DNA of 64,000 nt from Amycolatopsis sp. WQ 127309 (GTDB taxonomy: Bacteria; Actinomycetota; Actinomycetes; Mycobacteriales; Pseudonocardiaceae): NCBI RefSeq assembly GCF_023023025.1, contig NZ_CP095481.1:1116001-1180000 (forward strand), read 5' to 3'. The notes under the pieces were generated by a model. The model was not told where the DNA came from. It saw only the letters and a list, made by a program, of their open reading frames with translations, and did no database searches. Below, piece after piece: positions 50,371 to 61,292 of this stretch. Both the position numbers and the translations under genes were made by a program. Each line of letters starts with the position of its first letter. The stretch's first letter is position 1.

Positions 50371-51138
50371 CTAGGCGGTCGTCCGCCGCAGGTGCAGCAC
50401 GTAGTAACCCGCGCCGCTGACCAGGAGGACGCCGGCCAGGATCAGGAGCGGGACCCAGCCGGTGTCGTTGCTGGACGGTGCCGGGCCGCCGTCGCCGCGG
50501 GGCATCACCGAGCCCGTGGCGCCGTAACCGCCGGCCTCGCCGTCGCGGTCGTAGGCCGAGCCGGGGAGCTTGTCCGCGTACTTCGCCCCGACCGCCCGCT
50601 GGTAGTCGGCGACGCTCAGCGCGGCGCCGCCGGCGAGCGGCGTGACGCGGCCGTCGCCGACCGCGTACCAGGCGTCGACCTGCGGTTCGTGCAGCAGCTG
50701 GGCGCCGGCGGGCAGCTTGCGGGCGAACGACGTCTCGACGTCGCCCGAGGCGATGTTGCCGACCTGCCAGGCGCCGTCGTCGCCGCGGACCGACCAGAGC
50801 GTCGCGGTCCGGCCGTCGGAAGCCTGGACGGGCACGGCGAAGTAGGAGAACGCGCCCGGCGCCGCACCCGGCGTGCCGACGACGAAGTCCGGGGACAGGT
50901 CGTAGACCGGGTAGGCGTCCGGCGCGATCCGCACCGAGACCGGCGTGGCCGACGCGCCGGGCGCCTGGGCGAAGAACCGGACCAGGGTGTCCTGGAGCCC
51001 GGGCGCGGCGGCCGCGCTCCGGGCCGCCGCGGCGTCGGCGCTGCTGGTGCCGGCGGCCTGGGCCGCGCCTGACACCGGTGCCGTCATCAGCAGCGCCGCG
51101 CCGGTCAGTACGGCGAGCACCAGCGCCCGCCTGCTCAT
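50371..51138 (-). CDS. Membrane-anchored extracellular protein, unknown function
   Basis: 255 residues: a signal peptide (MSRRALVLAVLTGAALLMTAPVSGAAQA), an Ala-rich linker, and an extracellular beta-rich domain (about 50-215, LSPDFVVGTPGAAPGAFSYFAVPVQASDGR). A final helix, WVPLLILAGVLLVSGAGYYVLHLRRTTA, anchors the C-terminus in the membrane. It overlaps the upstream protease gene by four bases, so the two are coexpressed. It could be a receptor, immunity-like partner or substrate of that protease. I do not recognise the domain. Confidence 0.7.
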   Translation of the reverse strand: MSRRALVLAVLTGAALLMTAPVSGAAQAAGTSSADAAAARSAAAAPGLQDTLVRFFAQAPGASATPVSVRIAPDAYPVYDLSPDFVVGTPGAAPGAFSYFAVPVQASDGRTATLWSVRGDDGAWQVGNIASGDVETSFARKLPAGAQLLHEPQVDAWYAVGDGRVTPLAGGAALSVADYQRAVGAKYADKLPGSAYDRDGEAGGYGATGSVMPRGDGGPAPSSNDTGWVPLLILAGVLLVSGAGYYVLHLRRTTA

Positions 51139-51707
51139 CGGGTGATCCCCGTGAGCGTGTGCGTCCAGGTGAAGGACGAGTTCTGCGTGTAGTACCCGTA
51201 GGTCGACCAGTTGTAGCGCTTGGCCGGCCCCGGATCACCCCAGTACACCCAGTCGCCGCTGGTGTCGTAGCCGTAGAGGACGTGCGTGTGGCCGCCACCT
51301 GAGCGGTAGCCGACCCGGGTCTCGACCGGCCGGTTCGCGGCGGTCTGCGTCCGGATCGAGGCGTAGGGGATGCGGCTGTCGAGGTAGCGGCCGGGCGAGG
51401 TGAACCCGAGCCGGGCGAAGGCGCGTTGCGGGTCGGCGAGCGTGCCCGGCAGGTTCGCGCAGTCGGTCCCTGTCGTGTCGTGCGCCAGCTGGCAGAAGCG
51501 CGCCTGGCTGACGGTGACGCCGTGGTAGGCCGCGATGGTGTTGCCCGACGCCGCCCAGCACCACTGGGTCCGCTGCTGCGCCTGCATCGAGATCTGGTTC
51601 CGGACGCTCGACGGCGCGCCGGACGCGGCGGCGGTGGCCGGCACGACCAGGCACAGCGCCAGGCTCACCGCCAGTGCGGTGTGGACTCTGCTCGACTTCA
51701 CCAGCAC
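51135..51707 (-). CDS. Secreted papain-like cysteine peptidase (C39/C70-like)
   Basis: 190 residues with a signal peptide (about 1-28, cleavage near ATAAA-SG). The catalytic Cys is in RTQWCWAASGNTIAAYHG (about 45-62), the His in GGGHTHVLYGYD (about 144-155) and the Asp/Asn in WVYWGDPGP. This arrangement is that of small papain-like or AvrRpt2-like peptidases exported by actinomycetes. It is divergent from the XRE regulator gene, with a 15-bp palindrome about 90 bases upstream. Substrate unknown; the cotranslated membrane protein is the obvious candidate partner. Confidence 0.85.
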   Translation of the reverse strand: MLVKSSRVHTALAVSLALCLVVPATAAASGAPSSVRNQISMQAQQRTQWCWAASGNTIAAYHGVTVSQARFCQLAHDTTGTDCANLPGTLADPQRAFARLGFTSPGRYLDSRIPYASIRTQTAANRPVETRVGYRSGGGHTHVLYGYDTSGDWVYWGDPGPAKRYNWSTYGYYTQNSSFTWTHTLTGITR

Positions 51708-51954: not shown

Positions 51955-52953
51955 GTGGCACAAGACGGGAACCTTCCACTGATCATCGATGGCGCCCGGG
52001 CGACCCGGGCATCGGTCGCCGAACTGCCGAAAGAGCTGACCGAAGCGCTCCGGACCGGCGAATTCCACCATGCCTTGAGACTCGCGATCGCCTACCGCGG
52101 CCTCTCGCTCGCCCGGTTGCGCGCGCACCTCGCGCTGCGCGGGGTCCAAATCGGACAGTCGACGCTGAGTTACTGGCAACGCGGGTTGCGTCAGCCCGAG
52201 GTACCCAAGGCGCTGCCGGCGGTCCGGGCCCTGGAATCGGTCCTCCAGCTGCCCGCGGACGCCCTCGTGGTGCTGATCGGCCCGCGACTGGTCCGCCGCG
52301 GCCACCAGCCGGCGGCGTCGTTCCACGACCTCCGTTCCGGTGACATGGGATCGATCGTCGAGGACCTGCTCGCCGAGCTCGGCGCGTACCCGTCGTCGAA
52401 CCACTACAACGGCGACCTCGAACTGCTGTCGGTCCACGACACGATCACGTTCGACGCCGAGCACCGCCAGGTCAGCCTCCGCACCCGCCTGGTGACGCGA
52501 GCGCGCCGGCACGGCCCGGACCGCTACCTGACGGTGTACAACGGCGATCCGGGCTGCCGGATCGACGACGTCGAGCTGATCACGGACGAGGGCTGCCGGG
52601 TCGGCCGGATGCGCCGCAACCCGGACGCGGACACGATGGCGACGGAGCTGCTGTTCGACCGCAAGCTCGCCGAGGGCGACATCCACGTGTTCTGCTTCGA
52701 GGTCCGCGACGACTCGGGTTCGGCGTCGCCGGGCTACTACCGGATGCTGCGCGACCGCTGCGCGAGCTACCTGGTCCAGCTGAGGTTCGACCGCAACGCC
52801 CTCCCGGCCCGCTGCACCCGCCAGGTCCGCGCCCGCGACGACGCCCTGCCGGTGGTGGCGGAGGAACTGGCGTGCGACATGGGCGGCGTGAGCAGCGCGT
52901 TCTTCAACGACGCGGGTCCGGGTTTGGCCGGGGTCGCGGTGGAGTGGAACTGA
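51955..52953 (+). CDS. XRE-type helix-turn-helix protein with unknown C-terminal domain
   Basis: 332 residues from a GTG with GAAGGGA in front. Residues about 20-95 include LRLAIAYRGLSLARLRAHL and GQSTLSYWQRGLRQPEVPKALPAVRALESVLQLPADALVVLI, a clear XRE helix-turn-helix. The remaining ~230 residues form an alpha-plus-beta domain without recognised motif, rich in Asp/Arg and containing TFDAEHRQVSLRTRLVT and FCFEVRDDSGSASPGYYRML. Such large XRE proteins often sense a ligand through the C-terminal domain. It starts the putative accessory system that continues with the P-loop protein after 170 bases. Confidence 0.8.
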   Translation: MAQDGNLPLIIDGARATRASVAELPKELTEALRTGEFHHALRLAIAYRGLSLARLRAHLALRGVQIGQSTLSYWQRGLRQPEVPKALPAVRALESVLQLPADALVVLIGPRLVRRGHQPAASFHDLRSGDMGSIVEDLLAELGAYPSSNHYNGDLELLSVHDTITFDAEHRQVSLRTRLVTRARRHGPDRYLTVYNGDPGCRIDDVELITDEGCRVGRMRRNPDADTMATELLFDRKLAEGDIHVFCFEVRDDSGSASPGYYRMLRDRCASYLVQLRFDRNALPARCTRQVRARDDALPVVAEELACDMGGVSSAFFNDAGPGLAGVAVEWN

Positions 52954-53050
52954 TTGGCGCAACGCCCCGCTGAATTGATCGGAATGTGATTACCCTGCGA
53001 GTGCACGATTTCACTCGAATGGGTGAAGAGTGTGTTTGAGCACAACAACT

Positions 53051-53066
53051 CCGGGACGGGTCCCGG
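53051..53066. promoter_or_regulatory. Palindrome upstream of the NTPase gene
   Basis: CCGGGAC-GG-GTCCCGG is a perfect 16-bp palindrome. It lies between a TTGAGC (about 53036) and TAAGGT (about 53076-53081), so it could be an operator within or near the promoter. Confidence 0.4.
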
Positions 53067-53123
53067 GATCGGCGTTTAAGGTATTGCCTTCCAGTCGGGG
53101 GAGACTGGACGGCAAGGAGAAAA

Positions 53124-54983
53124 GTGCCAGAAAACCTCTCCACCACACTCGGCGCACTGGTGGAAGCACAGGTCACCGACACCGGAAGAGCGCCGTCGCC
53201 GGTTCTGGTCCTCGAAGGAACCGGCGGCTCCGGCCGTTCCACGGCGTTGCGGAAAACGCTGGAGGAATACCGGGAAAAGACGCCGACAGCACTGGTTCAA
53301 CCGCACGACAACGGCGAACCCGCGGATTCCGCTGTGCGCGGCGTCCTCACCGCCGTAATGCTCGGTCTCACCCCGGGAATCCGCGGTTACGACGTCAAGT
53401 TCCCGCGCACGGTGATCGCGCAGATCGTCCTCAGCGAAGACTTCTCCGGGCTGACCGCGGCCGCGGCGCTGAGCCGGCTGAAGGTGGTGCTGGCCGCGTA
53501 CAGCGAGCCCGCCGCGGTGACCAAGTTCGTCGTCGGCCTGGTGGCCGCCGGTGGAGAGCTGGCCGCGAACCAGGCCGCCCCACCCGTCGCCGCGGTCACC
53601 TCCGCGATCGCGAAGCAGGTGGCCGCGGGCGTCCTGGCGGCCCTGCGCAAGCGGGCCTGGCAACGGCAGATCGACTGGGACGGCCTCGTGGCCTGGTTCG
53701 GCCACCAGGACAAGGGCTTCCGCTACAACGCCGCCCAGATCCTGATCGACCTCAGCAACCGGGCCCGCAGTGACCGTGCCGACCTGCGCGAAGGAGTGAC
53801 CGACCTGCTGGTCGCGGCCCTGCTCGCGGACCTGCGGCACAGCTGGGAATCGGCCCGCGGCACCGCACCGAACGCGCTCGTGCTCATCGACGACGCCGAC
53901 CTGCCCGGCCCGTCGGCCTTCATCGGCTCGCTGATCCGCGTCCGGGCCGGGCTGGCCGCCACGCGCGCCGGCCTGCCGGACCCGGTGAACGTGGCCGTCG
54001 CCTCCGCCGGCGCGCTGGCCGACGTGCTCACCGCGGACACCGGCTGGGCGGGTGGGGCCGACCCGGCCCGGCCGTGGGTGCGGGTGCCGGCCGCCGACCT
54101 CGGCGAGGAGGAGGTCTGCCTGCTGGCCCAGAGCTTCGACTGGGGTGGCGGACGCCGGTACGGCTTGATCACCCACCACCTCACCCACGGCCACCCGGAG
54201 GGGACGGGCATCGTCCTGCGCGCGCTCGTCGCCGCGCCCGAGCTGGCCGACGACCTCGACGGCCTGCTGCGCCGCCGCGGACCGGGCGACGTCCCGATCG
54301 AGCACCGGCTGCTGGAACCGTTCGCCCGCGGCCTGAGCGCGCGCAAGGACGTCGACGAGCCCCAGTTCGAGGCGCTCGTGACCCTGTCGGGCGCCCGTGA
54401 TCGGCACGAAGCCGAAGGGCTGCTCCCGCTGCTGCCGCACCCGATCGGCATCGGCTCCCCCGTGTTCACGTCACCGACGTTGTGGTCGCCGCCGGGAGCG
54501 GACGGCGGCCGCCTGCACCCGCTGGCCCGGTACGTCGGCCTGCGGCTCCTCGCCGCCCGCGACGACCCGGCGACCGGCTGGACGGCGGTGTTCCGGAAGC
54601 TGCGGGACCGCGCCGGGCCCGACGACCGGGCCGGCCGGCTGCACCACGAAAGGCTGCTGAGCGGCAAGGAGGTCGTGGCCAAGGAGCTGGCCGGCCTCCT
54701 GCGGGAGCTGCGGGCCGCGGACTGGCTGACCCTGCTCGACGAGGTCACCGCCACCCCGGACCCCCGGGAACGGGACTTCGCGGCCGTCTGCGGTCCGAAG
54801 CAGCCCGCGACCCCGGTGGACCACATCGTCGTGCTGCTCGGCGTGTTCCCCGCACTCCACGACCCGTGCCTCACCTCCGCGTGGAACCGCACGACCCTGC
54901 AGACCCTCGCCTCGCACAGCCTCACCCACCTGGCCGGGTACGGCGACGAGCGGCCGCCGTTCCTCATGTGGCCCCGGCGCTGA
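53124..54983 (+). CDS. Large P-loop NTPase-like protein with divergent Walker A
   Basis: 619 residues from a GTG (AAGGAG four bases before). Near the N-terminus VLVLEGTGGSGRSTALRKTL (about 27-46) is a P-loop in which the invariant Lys of GxxxxGK[ST] is Arg (GTGGSGRST). The hydrophobic strand with two acids NALVLIDDADLPG (about 252-264) looks like Walker B. SVASAG and GR/RR motifs further on resemble STAND/AAA ATPase sensors. The C-terminal ~250 residues are helical and unassigned. It is cytoplasmic (no signal or helix span). The gene is 28 bases upstream of the membrane-receptor gene and 170 bases downstream of the XRE gene. Confidence 0.75.
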   Translation: MPENLSTTLGALVEAQVTDTGRAPSPVLVLEGTGGSGRSTALRKTLEEYREKTPTALVQPHDNGEPADSAVRGVLTAVMLGLTPGIRGYDVKFPRTVIAQIVLSEDFSGLTAAAALSRLKVVLAAYSEPAAVTKFVVGLVAAGGELAANQAAPPVAAVTSAIAKQVAAGVLAALRKRAWQRQIDWDGLVAWFGHQDKGFRYNAAQILIDLSNRARSDRADLREGVTDLLVAALLADLRHSWESARGTAPNALVLIDDADLPGPSAFIGSLIRVRAGLAATRAGLPDPVNVAVASAGALADVLTADTGWAGGADPARPWVRVPAADLGEEEVCLLAQSFDWGGGRRYGLITHHLTHGHPEGTGIVLRALVAAPELADDLDGLLRRRGPGDVPIEHRLLEPFARGLSARKDVDEPQFEALVTLSGARDRHEAEGLLPLLPHPIGIGSPVFTSPTLWSPPGADGGRLHPLARYVGLRLLAARDDPATGWTAVFRKLRDRAGPDDRAGRLHHERLLSGKEVVAKELAGLLRELRAADWLTLLDEVTATPDPRERDFAAVCGPKQPATPVDHIVVLLGVFPALHDPCLTSAWNRTTLQTLASHSLTHLAGYGDERPPFLMWPRR

Positions 54984-55011
54984 CCACCCCACCTCCCGGA
55001 AGGACCCCACC

Positions 55012-56598
55012 TTGCCCTCGCGCTACCGCTGGGTGGTCGTGCCCCGTGCCGACCGCTTCCCGAAACTGTGGATCGACTGGCTCCGGCTCGGGCTCGTGGT
55101 CCTGCTGGCCGTCACCGCCACCGGCGTCGTCGTCTTCCGGCAGGACCTCGGCCGGCTGGCCACCTGCAACGACGGCTGGCCCGGTACCGCCGCCTGGTCC
55201 GCCGCCGGCGAGTGCGTCGGGTTGTCCGACGGCTCGTACGCCTTCGGCCTCGACCGGTTCGCCCCGGTGCTGCAGACGATCGACCACCAGAACGACGCGG
55301 CCGCCGACAGCTGCGACCCGGACGGCACGCCGGTCACCGTCGGCGTGCTGGTGACCATGTCCGACCGCTACACGGGCGGCCGCGCGGTGCACGAGCTCGA
55401 AGGCATGGCGGCGGGGCAGCGCCACGCCAACGGCACCGGCTGCGTGCACCCGATGCGGCTGGTGGTCGCGAACATCGGCGCGTACGGCCCCGACAGCGAA
55501 GGACTCGACGTCGCCCAAGCGCTCGCCGACCGGCCGGACGTCGTCGCGGTCGTCGGGATGGGCCTGAGCCAGGAACAGGCGGCCCGGACCGCGGACCTGT
55601 TCGCCGGCGCGAAGATCCCGATGGTGTCCGACGTGATCACCGCGGAGGGCTTCGACCAGACCGGCTCGCGCGAGGACCAGCCGCAGTTCGACTCGTGCGA
55701 CCCGGACATCACCTACCAGCGCGGGATCGGGCGGGACTACTTCTACCGCGTCGCTTACCGCAACCGGGTGCAGATCGACCGGCTCGCCGCCGTCGTGACC
55801 GCGCGGCCGGACTTCGTCATGGTGCCCACCGGCGGTTCCGACCCGTACACCTGCACCGCGCTGCCGATGGTGCAGCGCCGGTTCGGCGGCGACGTCACCG
55901 AGGTGAAGTTCGACGCCGACGAGTCCAGCACGGTGCTGCAGACGGCGAAGCGGATCTGCGGCACGGCCAAGGACGTCACCGTCGTGTACATCGCCCGCGG
56001 CAGCGACCTGGCCCGGCTCCTGTTCAGCCTCGACGAGGCGTTCGGCAGCGGCCAGTGCGCGGCGACGTCGGTGGCCGTGGTGAGCACCTCGGACGGCCAG
56101 CGGCTCCGCGCGGTCGAGGACAACCCGATGCTGGAGGACCTGCGGGTCCGCGCCCTGCGGTCGGCGAGCTTCGCCGCCGGCCGGGTGCGCCTGCTCACGA
56201 CGCTCGTCTCGGGCGCCGACAAGAAGCGCCCGGACAACCCCGGGTTCGCCGATCTGGAGGAGTCGTTCACCGCCGCCGGGTTCGACCTGGCGGACATCGA
56301 CGACGGCTGGGCGGTCAACGCCTACGACTCGACGGTCACGGTGTCCGAAGCGCTGCGCACCCTCCCGGCCGCGAAACCGGTCCAGCGCAGCCAGGTGAAC
56401 ACGGCGATCAGCGGCTTCTCCGCGGCGGGCCAAGCGGTCCGCGGCGCGGGCGGCATGATCACGTTCGACAACAGCGGCAACCGGGCCGACGCCGGCCCGC
56501 CCGTGGTCCGGGTCTGCCCCCTGCCACCGGCGACCGGATCCCGCCCGGCCCGCACGACAAGCGTGCCGGCGGGCCCGGGAGACCCGGCGACCTGCTGA
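55012..56598 (+). CDS. Membrane-anchored periplasmic-binding-fold protein
   Basis: 528 residues from a TTG with GGAAGGA in front. A short cytoplasmic start (PSRYRWVVVPRADRF) is followed by one membrane helix (LRLGLVVLLAVTATGVVVF, about 26-44). A long extracellular domain has a type I periplasmic-binding (Leu/Ile/Val receptor) pattern: VTVGVLVTMSDRYTGGRAVHELEGMAAGQRHAN, VVAVVGMGLSQEQAARTADLFAGAKIPMVSDVIT, DYFYRVAYRNRVQID, and IDDGWAVNAYDSTVTVSEAL. No ABC permease or ATPase genes are adjacent, so it is more likely a ligand receptor than a transporter component. Eight or more Cys may form disulfides. Likely partner of the P-loop protein. Confidence 0.8.
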   Translation: MPSRYRWVVVPRADRFPKLWIDWLRLGLVVLLAVTATGVVVFRQDLGRLATCNDGWPGTAAWSAAGECVGLSDGSYAFGLDRFAPVLQTIDHQNDAAADSCDPDGTPVTVGVLVTMSDRYTGGRAVHELEGMAAGQRHANGTGCVHPMRLVVANIGAYGPDSEGLDVAQALADRPDVVAVVGMGLSQEQAARTADLFAGAKIPMVSDVITAEGFDQTGSREDQPQFDSCDPDITYQRGIGRDYFYRVAYRNRVQIDRLAAVVTARPDFVMVPTGGSDPYTCTALPMVQRRFGGDVTEVKFDADESSTVLQTAKRICGTAKDVTVVYIARGSDLARLLFSLDEAFGSGQCAATSVAVVSTSDGQRLRAVEDNPMLEDLRVRALRSASFAAGRVRLLTTLVSGADKKRPDNPGFADLEESFTAAGFDLADIDDGWAVNAYDSTVTVSEALRTLPAAKPVQRSQVNTAISGFSAAGQAVRGAGGMITFDNSGNRADAGPPVVRVCPLPPATGSRPARTTSVPAGPGDPATC

Positions 56599-56663: not shown

Positions 56664-57083
56664 TCACAGCACCTCGAACCCGTTGGCCTTGGCTGCCTCC
56701 GCCTGGCGGTCGTCCCGGGTCACGAAGGTCACCGGCGCGCCGCCGGTCAGTTCCGCCGTGTCGTGCATCGCGACCGCGATGTGGATCGCGCCGAGCGTGG
56801 ACACCGGGCTCCCGATCACCGTCCGTCGAGCCGCGGCGAAGACACGCGGATTCAGCGGGACGACTCCCAGCACCGTCCGCGAATCCTCGTCGAACCGGTG
56901 GAGGAGATCTGTCATGCCGGGCTTGGCCGCGGTGATCGCGTCGGCCAGTTCCAGCCGGGTGAGTTCGCTGGTCAGGACGAAGTGCCCGCCATCGAGGAGC
57001 AGTTCTCGCAGCTCAGCGTGGCCGGGCTCGTCGGCGAGATAGGCCGCGAACAAGGCGGTCGGGTCAGCGTAGAAGATCGTCAC
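56664..57083 (-). CDS. PIN-domain toxin-like protein (VapC family), active site incomplete
   Basis: 139 residues. Motif 1 is FYADPTALFAAYL (Asp7), motif 2 is RLELADAI (Glu), motif 4 is FVTRDDRQAEAA (Asp). The third acid, normally Asp in LDAIHLA, is Gly (LGAIHIAVAM, codon GGC). PIN RNases need these acids for Mg2+, so the toxin may be weakened or dead. It is coupled to the antitoxin gene by a four-base overlap, in the normal antitoxin-first order. Confidence 0.85.
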   Translation of the reverse strand: MTIFYADPTALFAAYLADEPGHAELRELLLDGGHFVLTSELTRLELADAITAAKPGMTDLLHRFDEDSRTVLGVVPLNPRVFAAARRTVIGSPVSTLGAIHIAVAMHDTAELTGGAPVTFVTRDDRQAEAAKANGFEVL

Positions 57084-57352
57084 CGTTCACCCCTGTTCCA
57101 GCGGATCGGACCCCAGCCGCGCGAGAGCTCCTCCAGCTTGTCGTGCCCCGGCGCCTCGCCCTCCGGCTCGAAGGCGAGCAGCTTGCCTTCGGCGATGAGG
57201 CGATCGCGTCGTTCCAGCGGGCTTTCCCCCTGCGCCACCACGACCCGCAGGGCCTCGGTGACCAGGTCGTTCATGCTGCGCCCCTCGGCTTCGGCTCTCG
57301 CCTTCAGCCGAGCGTGCAGCTCGTCGTCGATCCGGGTGATCAGCTGCTTCAC
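57080..57352 (-). CDS. Ribbon-helix-helix antitoxin (VapB/FitA-like)
   Basis: 90 residues from a GTG at 57352 (VKQLITRIDDELHARLKARAEAEGRSMNDLVTEALRVVV). This is a typical RHH DNA-binding N-terminus followed by a toxin-neutralising tail ending GWGPIRWNRGER. A GTG seven codons upstream is the alternative start. TATCAT (complement of about 57357-57362) lies six bases before the chosen GTG, suggesting a leaderless mRNA. An inverted repeat covers this -10. Confidence 0.85.
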   Translation of the reverse strand: MKQLITRIDDELHARLKARAEAEGRSMNDLVTEALRVVVAQGESPLERRDRLIAEGKLLAFEPEGEAPGHDKLEELSRGWGPIRWNRGER

Positions 57353-57359
57353 CCCACCA

Positions 57360-57388
57360 TGATAGCGCGCCACCCATTCGTGCTATCA
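57360..57388 (-). promoter_or_regulatory. Operator of the toxin-antitoxin pair
   Basis: TGATAGC-N15-GCTATCA, perfect seven-base arms around the presumed -10 and transcription start of the antitoxin gene; RHH antitoxins normally bind such repeats. Confidence 0.65.
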
Positions 57389-59027: not shown

Positions 59028-61292
59028 GTGCCCATGCCCGGCCCGGACACCCGCGTCGTCGAAATCCGCGTCGCCGGCCTCGTGGGCACCAGCGGCGAGA
59101 CCCTGCTCGACGCGGTCGCGACCGTCGACGTCGCCGGCGACGGGCTGGGCCGCGTGATCCGCCCGGCGGACCGGCTGCGACGACCGGCGCCGGGACCGGT
59201 GCTGCCGGCACTGGGCCGGTCGATCCCGCGGACCCTCGAGGGCTACCTTTGGCACGGCATGACGTCGGGGGGCGCCGCGAAGGCGACCTGGGCCCTGCTG
59301 TTCCCGTTCTCCCTGGCCAACGTCGCGTTCTGGATGCTGCCGGCGGTCCCGCCCGGCCGCCGCCTCCCCCGCCTGCTCGGCGCGGTGTGCCGCGGCCTGC
59401 TGCGCGTCGCGGCCCTGCTGCTCACCATGCTGCTGATGGGCCAGCTCGCGGCGATCGCGCTCGACCTGTTCGCCGCGCAGTGCCTGGCCCCCGGCTCGGG
59501 CTGCCTGCCCGCGATCCCGGACGACCTCCGCACGCTGCCCGCGCGGATCGTGGTCGGCGTCCTCCCGCTGCTCGTGGTGATCTTCGTGCTGCACCGGATC
59601 TCGTCGGCGAGCTGGGCGGTGCACGCCGAGAGCGACCGCGTCGAAGGCCCGCTGCGGATGCGCACCGGCTCCGGGACGCCGGCGCTGCGCGGGCTGCACA
59701 CCGTCGCCGCGCTCGCGTCGGTCGCGCTGCTGCTGCTCGGCGGGCCGTTCCGGGTGCCGGGGGCCGTCTTCGACCTGGTCGTCTGGATCGCCACGCTGGC
59801 GCTGGTGCTCGCCGCCGTCGTCGCCGCGGCGATCGGCACGGACACGGGCCGGATCGCCCGCCGCGGCCTGATCGGATTCGCCGTGCTGCTGGTCGTCGCC
59901 GCGGCGGTGCGGCTGCGCCCCGGCCCGGGCCGGCTGCCGGGCACCAACGGCGTCGTCGAGGGTCTCGGCGCGGCGCTGGTCGCGGTCACCGTGCTGTTCG
60001 CGCTGTTCCTGGCGCCGGCCGCGCTGCTGGCCCGGCCCACCTGGAAGCACAAGCCGCGCCGGCTGCGGCCGTGGGCGGGCGGCTGGGCGGCCGCGCCGGT
60101 GCTCGCGCTCGCCGGGCTGCTCGGCGGCGGGTTCGGCGCCGGGCTCGCGGAAGCCGTCCGACGCCTTTCCGGGGCCGGCCTCCTGCAGGTACCCGACACG
60201 TACTTGCTGGTCACGGTCCTGTGGGGCGCCGGGCTGGCGCTCGCGGCGGTGCTGTCCCTGCTGGGTTTCGCGGTCGCCGTCCCGGTGCGCCGGCTGCGGC
60301 GGGGCATCCCGGCGATCGTCGGGCTGATGGAGCACGACGCCCAGCAGGAGGCCCAGGCCGCGGCGGCGTGGGCGCGGTCGGCGTGGGAACGGCGGCACCT
60401 GCACCACCTGGCCCTCACCGTGGCGTCCGCGATGTCGGCGGGCGGCGCGGCGCTGCTGGTGCTGCGGTTCGGGTTCGGCCTGGTCCCCGGCTGGTTCGGG
60501 CCGCTGTCGGCGATCGGCGTCGTCGCGCTCGGCGCGCTGGCGGCGGGGCTGCTGCGCGTCGTCTACACGGCCGCGCGCACCCCGCAGCGCAGCCGGCACC
60601 TCGGCGCGCTCGCCGACCTCGTCTGCTTCTGGCCGCGGGCGGCGCACCCGACCGTGCCACCGTGCTACGCGCTGAAGGTCGTCCCCGAACTGGCCGCGCG
60701 CGTGCGCGAGCACCTCAAGGAGCCGGGGACGCGGGTGGTGCTGTCCGGCTACAACCTCGGCAGCCTGCTCACGGTGATGGCCGCCGCGCGGCTCGCGGCG
60801 GAGCTGCCGGAGACCGACCGCGAACGCGTCGGCGTGCTGACCGCCGGGTCACCGCTGCAGTGGGGCTACCAGCGGGCGTTCCCCGCGTTGCTGCCGCAGG
60901 AGTCGCTGGAGCAGCTCTTCGAAAGCCTCGACGGCCGGTGGCGGGCGTTGTGCCGCGGCACGGACATCTTCGGCGGCGGCGTGACGACGTGGCGGCACGA
61001 GGTCTCCGACCGGAAGCTGTACGGCGTCGGCTTCCTGGCCGAAGGCGGCTGCGGCCCGTTGAAGGCGAAGGCCGACGAGAACGGCGTCCTCATCCTGGGC
61101 GGCGACCACTGGCTGCCAGACCCGCTGCGCGGCCCGACCGGCCGGCACCGCTGGGCGCCGGGGGTGCTCAGGCACCAGGACTACGTCGTCGACGCGGAGT
61201 GGGACCACGCCGTCGCGATGGCGGCCGGGCTCGGCAAACCGAACGGCGGCGTACAGGGGCTGCTCTTCCCGGACTTCCCCGGAAAGCCGTGA
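59028..61292 (+). CDS. Polytopic membrane protein with C-terminal pseudo-lipase domain
   Basis: 754 residues from a GTG with AGGAGG before it. An N-terminal ~100 soluble residues (VVEIRVAGLVGTSGETLLDAV, GYLWHGMTSGGAAKATWALLFPF) are followed by about 11 membrane segments to residue ~530. A soluble alpha/beta-hydrolase-like domain comes last: VVLSGYNLGSLLTVMAAA, LTAGSPLQWGYQRAFP, WRALCRGTDIFGGGV, GDHWLPD and RHQDYVVD. In relatives the nucleophile elbow reads G-x-S-x-G; here it is G-Y-N-L-G, so the Ser is replaced by Asn (AAC). An enzyme is therefore unlikely unless another residue acts. Confidence 0.8.
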   Translation: MPMPGPDTRVVEIRVAGLVGTSGETLLDAVATVDVAGDGLGRVIRPADRLRRPAPGPVLPALGRSIPRTLEGYLWHGMTSGGAAKATWALLFPFSLANVAFWMLPAVPPGRRLPRLLGAVCRGLLRVAALLLTMLLMGQLAAIALDLFAAQCLAPGSGCLPAIPDDLRTLPARIVVGVLPLLVVIFVLHRISSASWAVHAESDRVEGPLRMRTGSGTPALRGLHTVAALASVALLLLGGPFRVPGAVFDLVVWIATLALVLAAVVAAAIGTDTGRIARRGLIGFAVLLVVAAAVRLRPGPGRLPGTNGVVEGLGAALVAVTVLFALFLAPAALLARPTWKHKPRRLRPWAGGWAAAPVLALAGLLGGGFGAGLAEAVRRLSGAGLLQVPDTYLLVTVLWGAGLALAAVLSLLGFAVAVPVRRLRRGIPAIVGLMEHDAQQEAQAAAAWARSAWERRHLHHLALTVASAMSAGGAALLVLRFGFGLVPGWFGPLSAIGVVALGALAAGLLRVVYTAARTPQRSRHLGALADLVCFWPRAAHPTVPPCYALKVVPELAARVREHLKEPGTRVVLSGYNLGSLLTVMAAARLAAELPETDRERVGVLTAGSPLQWGYQRAFPALLPQESLEQLFESLDGRWRALCRGTDIFGGGVTTWRHEVSDRKLYGVGFLAEGGCGPLKAKADENGVLILGGDHWLPDPLRGPTGRHRWAPGVLRHQDYVVDAEWDHAVAMAAGLGKPNGGVQGLLFPDFPGKP

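Follow-up and report, generated by a model that had tools for sequence, protein, structure and literature searches.

A candidate two-gene module of actinomycetes pairing a membrane-anchored Venus flytrap receptor with a STAND-like NTPase

In a stretch of 64,000 nucleotides (nt) from Amycolatopsis sp. WQ 127309 (contig NZ_CP095481.1, positions 1,116,001 to 1,180,000, hereafter the window; the genome comprises 11.13 Mb in one contig), two adjacent genes on the forward strand encode a STAND-like NTPase of 619 amino acids (positions 53124-54983 of the window) and a predicted membrane-anchored receptor of 528 amino acids (55012-56598). We propose, with a probability of about 0.6, that they form a two-gene module of soil actinomycetes in which a ligand-gated transmembrane receptor controls a STAND-type switch. 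This two-gene transmembrane module is supported by the finding that NTPase and receptor are inherited together and have become one polypeptide in several lineages. A sequence-only reading of the window had described a trio of same-strand genes with short gaps, the first being a candidate XRE regulator of 332 amino acids (51955-52953, + strand). The three open reading frames are present where it placed them, with 170 nt between the XRE candidate and the NTPase gene and 28 nt between the NTPase and receptor genes, but the unit is a two-gene module adjoining a core gene. The NTPase gene has a GTG start preceded by GGAG, and the TTG start of the receptor gene aligns with the start of close orthologues. 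Genes were called by a simple codon-usage caller, and starts and some calls of an absent Walker A motif are possibly wrong.

The NTPase and receptor genes form a genetic unit

Co-occurrence of NTPase and receptor across genomes, which had been named as a check on the proposed pair, was borne out. In 100 relatives, the receptor gene was detected directly downstream of the NTPase gene and on the same strand for 10 of 11 NTPase matches, at mostly different chromosomal places; the lone NTPase is G021:C180. In 296 genomes of the class, a receptor gene adjoined 12 of 13 full-length unfused NTPases (exception G168/L149), and four more NTPase matches shared a frame with a receptor match (one frame is truncated at a contig end). 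Both samples include the pair of the window itself. In 56 of the 296 class genomes the receptor profile gave a match (E ≤ 1e-6), and 60 stretches around such places, a few of them picked by the NTPase, were fetched; 20 relatives and partners were searched with Pfam. At least one of these matches, that in G161 (E 6e-8), is probably an ordinary solute-binding protein. Of 296 genomes of the phylum, 9 had a receptor match at E ≤ 1e-10; the two matches from outside the class were weak (1.8e-11 and 8.3e-11) and lie in frames of 451 and 448 amino acids that resemble ordinary solute-binding proteins.

A further set of named loci was obtained with a receptor-motif scan of genome contigs that was blind to the NTPase (108 pattern matches; the best 80 of 98 confirmed); several of these loci duplicate genomes of the other samples, e.g. 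L043 and L181. For the 80 loci, all actinomycete by title, the NTPase profile was enlarged with members of the same contexts, and a fusion was termed partial when that profile covered at most 450 residues. The genes were split and adjacent in 59 loci, fully fused in 6 and partially fused in 8, while the NTPase was undetected in 7, so that receptor and NTPase were adjacent or fused in 73 of the 80. Split pairs carry 21 genus- or family-level labels and are separated by a median gap of 22 nt (range -13 to 271; 18 overlapping or abutting). Each of the six full fusions follows the operon order, with the NTPase N-terminal to the receptor. As for the seven loci with undetected NTPase, the receptor stands alone in L188, L201 and L211 and is broken in L220; L213 encodes a long fusion whose N-terminal portion the NTPase profile did not match, and L186 and L193 have a helix-turn-helix-like N terminus (L186: HTH_31 with E 1e-4 but below the cut-off; L193: without Pfam support).

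Pairwise distances of NTPases and receptors were correlated over 75 non-redundant pairs (r=0.835; maximum in 2000 permutations 0.075), a correlation to which shared descent contributes, and r was 0.589 among comparisons in which the NTPases are less than 40% identical. Taken together, it is well supported by these sequence comparisons that the receptor and the cytoplasmic NTPase form a genetic unit.

Several loci depart from the simple pair. In L144 and L254, a single NTPase gene is followed by a tandem pair of receptor genes. Long receptor fusions with a degenerate or undetected N-terminal NTPase are encoded in L158, L163, L167, L168, L172, L209, L213 and L219; as these eight loci lie at one site with the same neighbour families, they suggest a vertically kept branch. 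Divergent pairs of one genus with large genomes, perhaps Streptomyces (L148, L149, L152, L153 and L155), share one site, as judged by their neighbours, and in L149 the NTPase is present and the receptor absent. A receptor remnant in a same-genus genome (L053:5569-6096) is 73% identical over residues 286-460 with a stop inside the wider match, and no NTPase match was found on its 13.5 kb contig. This remnant records gain and loss of the module.

The closest named loci belong to Amycolatopsis (receptor identity 81%). Rates of evolution, given as the ratio of nonsynonymous to synonymous divergence (dN/dS), were determined relative to the Amycolatopsis loci L181 and L182, which lie at the same site and are close relatives, not independent references (dS 0.23-0.46). 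The ratio was 0.63 for the NTPase and 0.36-0.37 for the receptor, and for the genes around them 0.11 (sahH), 0.15-0.23 (tmk) and 0.02-0.03 (XRE gene); a neighbouring C70-like gene was also fast (0.39-0.52). The fast change of the NTPase is expected under an arms race or under relaxed constraint, the latter being possible for the window NTPase because its Walker A lysine is lost.

The receptor is predicted to be an anchored flytrap

Hydropathy analysis revealed a single N-terminal hydrophobic helix as putative transmembrane anchor (core residues 24-42, 55081-55137, + strand; model helix 17-52). Such an N-terminal segment was detected in 40 of 44 receptors and a second one in none of the 44, and in fusion proteins the matching segment is internal. 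The mean net charge is +2.5 N-terminal to it and -0.5 C-terminal to it, as in an N-in, C-out orientation. The domain behind this single helix and its short, positively charged tail is therefore expected to lie extracellularly, as far as sequence and model can indicate. This domain (residues 106-521, 55327-56574, + strand) is a predicted type I periplasmic-binding-protein (PBP), or Venus flytrap, domain. The AlphaFold2 model of the receptor was obtained with a predicted local distance difference test score (pLDDT) of 84.6 and a predicted template-modelling score (pTM) of 0.86, and structure matches of the model as well as a sequence profile (E=1e-9 to 4n0q) indicate the type I PBP fold, nearest to Leu/Ile/Val (LIV) and glutamate receptors. 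In the putative pocket, T210 (T/S in 40/44) and Y279 (Y/F in 40/44) align with a Thr and a Tyr of the LIV-binding protein, and S186 is found in all 44 receptors. Pfam often misses the family (ANF_receptor in 15/44, Peripla_BP_6 in 11/44; E ≤ 0.01).

Between helix and flytrap, receptor alignments revealed the juxtamembrane signature C52...E67-C68-V-G-x-x-D-G74 (55165-55233, + strand). C52, C68 and G70 were invariant in 24 receptors found by profile, whereas invariance of the signature in the motif-picked 44-receptor alignment is partly by construction. The pattern also occurs in fusions with other outputs, and C...ECVGxxDG behind a hydrophobic helix provides a handle for retrieving the receptor family.

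The NTPase resembles STAND proteins

In an alignment of 46 NTPases, the P-loop GTGGSGRS (residues 32-39, 53217-53240, + strand) carries an arginine (Arg38) in place of the Walker A lysine. Column 38 holds K in 33 sequences, A in 7, R in 5 and a gap in 1, so that the lysine typical of STAND proteins is present in most family members and absent from the window copy, for which reason we use the name STAND-like. The Walker B motif ALVLIDD (residues 251-257, 53874-53894, + strand) follows the hhhhD pattern with D256 in 46/46 sequences, and the next position is N in 38, D in 7 and E in 1. Behind the nucleotide-binding core lies a T-x-G-x-P motif, THGHP (residues 354-358, 54183-54197, + strand; T354 in 45/46, G356 in 46/46, P358 in 41/46), which we take to be the GxP motif of STAND proteins. 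The predicted fold is near NLR and CED-4 over most of the chain, residues 372-526 match MalT at profile level (E=0.0019), and the C-terminal ~140 residues are helical in the model. Homology and predicted fold together uphold the proposed identities of NTPase and receptor. No effector or repeat domain of the window NTPase was matched by Pfam, and NCBIfam gave zero matches for the XRE candidate, the NTPase and the receptor. Because the Walker A lysine is replaced by Arg, the window NTPase may bind nucleotide weakly or work without hydrolysis.

Related receptors carry other outputs

In the class genomes, related receptors were detected behind TIR_2 (L178, E 2e-34), DUF4062 (L177, E 1e-11; L280, E 1e-13), Ser/Thr kinase domains (L164, L165 and L286; E values of Pkinase 1e-47, 1e-45 and 6e-30) and EAD1 (L281, E 1e-8; L282, E 3e-13; L179, E 0.013, below the cut-off). 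TIR domains are counted in a network of conflict systems. EAD1, STAND and kinase domains are listed as members of this network, and PBP domains are reported on EACC1 caspase proteins, in the sections of Kaur et al. (2020, PMC7159879) drawn on here. The TIR, EAD1, DUF4062 and kinase outputs of receptor relatives are, by analogy, our main reason for leaning towards conflict signalling. The proposal of a signalling or conflict role fits these outputs and the fast evolution of the NTPase, but matches to defence-system models are weak and scattered: the best PADLOC match in the window was partial (E=0.0057), short of a defence-system assignment, and among 46 NTPases the commonest model, mad8, was matched in 9 (best E=4e-4). 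Neither 8 window proteins nor the 20 scanned relatives and partners yielded a caspase or cyclase domain, in a scan in which EACC1 itself was not sought.

Neighbouring genes and the variable site

That the receptor lacks transporter partners was supported by BLAST of 1047 neighbouring proteins (four genes on each side) against 8 fetched LIV loci, which turned up no LIV permease. Matches were restricted to ABC-ATPase stubs at LIV-locus ends. Permeases of the LIV loci recovered each other in the same BLAST (60 cross hits), and in the same genome an ordinary solute-binding match does adjoin permeases. With no permease partner found, a role in ATP-binding cassette (ABC) transport is unsupported. 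A third linked gene or effector was likewise not found: the 25 largest neighbour clusters, judged by sequence, each kept a fixed position in at most 7 loci, and the 7 loci represent one syntenic site. A collection of plasmids gave a single weak match, which falls in a Nonomuraea record of 11.9 Mb, and a phage collection gave none.

The XRE candidate had zero Pfam or NCBIfam matches at E ≤ 1. In 58 of 60 same-genus genomes, the window's own included, a homologue with 56% identity or more was present, and copies with 98-99% identity occur in 18 genomes of the genus other than the window's own. An NTPase match was found in 10 of the 60 by single-sequence search; this count is a minimum, since more divergent pairs came to light through the receptor (G020, G004, G034 and G008; second pairs in G040 and G046); a full receptor orthologue (at least 70% identity) occurred in 8 of the 60. 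Among 30 XRE loci inspected, the NTPase was next door only in the window (L111) and in G046 (L128), and the other 28 had PIN/RHH genes, sahH or both there, within a flank of 1.5 kb. In G040 the pair is present and an XRE homologue above 46% identity is absent. Within four genes of the examined receptors, the XRE family was detected in the window, in L043 and L181 (one genome), in L182 and in L202. As the XRE gene occurs without the pair and is seldom beside it, it was rejected as a member of the system. The site had been described as variable between two conserved genes; it is variable, but the flanking conserved genes are the XRE gene itself and sahH.

On the 5' side of the trio lie tmk (Pfam E 3e-20), an open reading frame without Pfam match and, near tmk, a gene of the C70 papain-like peptidase type (51135-51707, - strand; Pfam E 4e-11; N-terminal hydrophobic segment), the latter with 76-77% identity in the two nearest loci. 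On the 3' side, a PIN-domain toxin-like gene with an RHH antitoxin-like gene (56664-57373, - strand) lies between the pair and an open reading frame read as sahH from its letters alone; these PIN/RHH genes are found with ~45-75% identity at the same site in many same-genus genomes. A tRNA of undefined type called by ARAGORN (60069-60151) within a long open reading frame is probably a false positive.

Proposed mechanism and rival explanations

In the proposed module, the flytrap would close on a small ligand that most likely resembles an amino acid, and the ligand-induced change would cross the transmembrane helix to the tethered NTPase. The nucleotide or oligomer state of the NTPase would then shift as in NLR or MalT, but here under an extracellular sensor. 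More tentatively, the output may be protection or growth arrest, since TIR, EAD1, DUF4062 and Ser/Thr kinase domains occur in fusions with relatives of the receptor.

Conflict and nutrient signalling are sub-readings of this module and rivals to each other. A conflict or cell-death system, in which an outside cue (competitor metabolite, kin signal or phage-released amino acid) leads the STAND-like protein to recruit an unlinked effector, is a tentative reading, held at well below even odds. The predicted fold near NLR and CED-4, the related receptors on TIR, EAD1 and DUF4062 proteins and the report of EACC1 caspase proteins with PBP domains (Kaur et al., 2020, PMC7159879) argue for it, while the lack of a gene family with a recurring fixed position next to the pair and the weak, scattered PADLOC matches argue against it. 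Rather unlikely, in our view, is amino-acid sensing that tunes metabolism or development with no conflict role, similar to GlnH-GlnX-PknG but built from a type I flytrap and a STAND-like NTPase. It would account for the closeness of the receptor to Leu/Ile/Val and glutamate receptors and for the kinase fusions (L164, L165, L286), and sensing through solute-binding proteins is known in actinobacteria (excerpt of PMC6069109); patchy presence (NTPase in at least 10/60 same-genus genomes), shifting chromosomal sites, the fast-evolving NTPase and the TIR, EAD1 and DUF4062 relatives would, however, be unusual for a housekeeping sensor.

That the pair is a relic, the NTPase having decayed into a pseudo-enzyme and the receptor serving, as an orphan solute-binding protein, ABC permeases elsewhere, is improbable. 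Replacement of the Walker A lysine in 12 of 46 NTPases (gapped in 1), the undetected P-loop in 16 partial fusions and the broken remnant in L053 would agree with decay, but the frames are open with dN/dS below 1, cysteines are invariant and pocket columns conserved, NTPase and receptor co-diverge, and gene order is kept across genera. We give hardly any credence to a three-gene operon with the XRE protein as transcriptional output of NTPase and receptor: the genes are adjacent on the same strand in the window, in Amycolatopsis sp. 2-2 (L043/L181) and in A. eburnea (L182), yet nearly all same-genus genomes have the XRE homologue and few the pair, G040 has the pair without it, outside the window just 4 loci have XRE within four genes of an examined receptor, a single genome accounting for two of these, and the gap measures 170 nt. 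Going beyond the two-gene module, the family could represent a class of transmembrane, NLR-like receptors widespread among actinomycetes, in which an amino-acid-type flytrap gates a STAND protein and the cassette is re-used on TIR, kinase, EAD1 and DUF4062 proteins, forming an outside-in immune or altruistic-death pathway for extracellular small molecules; we regard this as conceivable but on the unlikely side.

Comparison with known systems

No paper on the NTPase-receptor pair was found among the open-access papers listed for the terms used, a result that does not extend to the whole literature. Closest in description is the EACC1 system, which likewise has two genes, is membrane-associated and common in actinobacteria, includes members with transmembrane helices followed by an extracellular PBP domain, and belongs to a network with EAD1 and STAND (sections cited of Kaur et al., 2020, PMC7159879). 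Its constant part is a caspase/cyclase protein and the EACC1 gene (same sections, PMC7159879), whereas here it is the PBP receptor, with a STAND-like NTPase as usual partner and no caspase recognized; the PBP domains are alike by description only.

The GlnH-GlnX-PknG system of mycobacteria uses a separate lipoprotein and transmembrane protein, a kinase output and another PBP class. In it, as proposed here, a solute-binding protein feeds a cytoplasmic enzyme across the membrane of an actinobacterium (PMC6069109, in excerpt). Unlike Leu/Ile/Val-binding ABC proteins, the receptor has a putative hydrophobic anchor and four conserved cysteines, and no permease neighbours were found. Natriuretic peptide receptors have one transmembrane helix and a cytoplasmic output. 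They share with the outer domain of class C G-protein-coupled receptors and, by structural match, with the predicted receptor described here an extracellular type I PBP domain; the present receptor differs in being bacterial, in having its putative transmembrane helix before the flytrap and in its STAND-like NTPase output.

The NTPase resembles STAND NTPases (plant NLRs, CED-4, MalT and archaeal 2qen/2fna) in predicted fold over most of the chain, in Walker B and in T-x-G-x-P. It differs from them in the window P-loop without Lys, in that no effector domain was found, and in its sensor, which would be a separate or fused flytrap across the membrane where theirs is an intracellular repeat domain. 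Most known STAND proteins read intracellular cues. An outside sensor with the fold of amino-acid-binding relatives would offer a route to test extracellular small-molecule triggering of STAND, TIR and kinase responses in multicellular actinomycetes.
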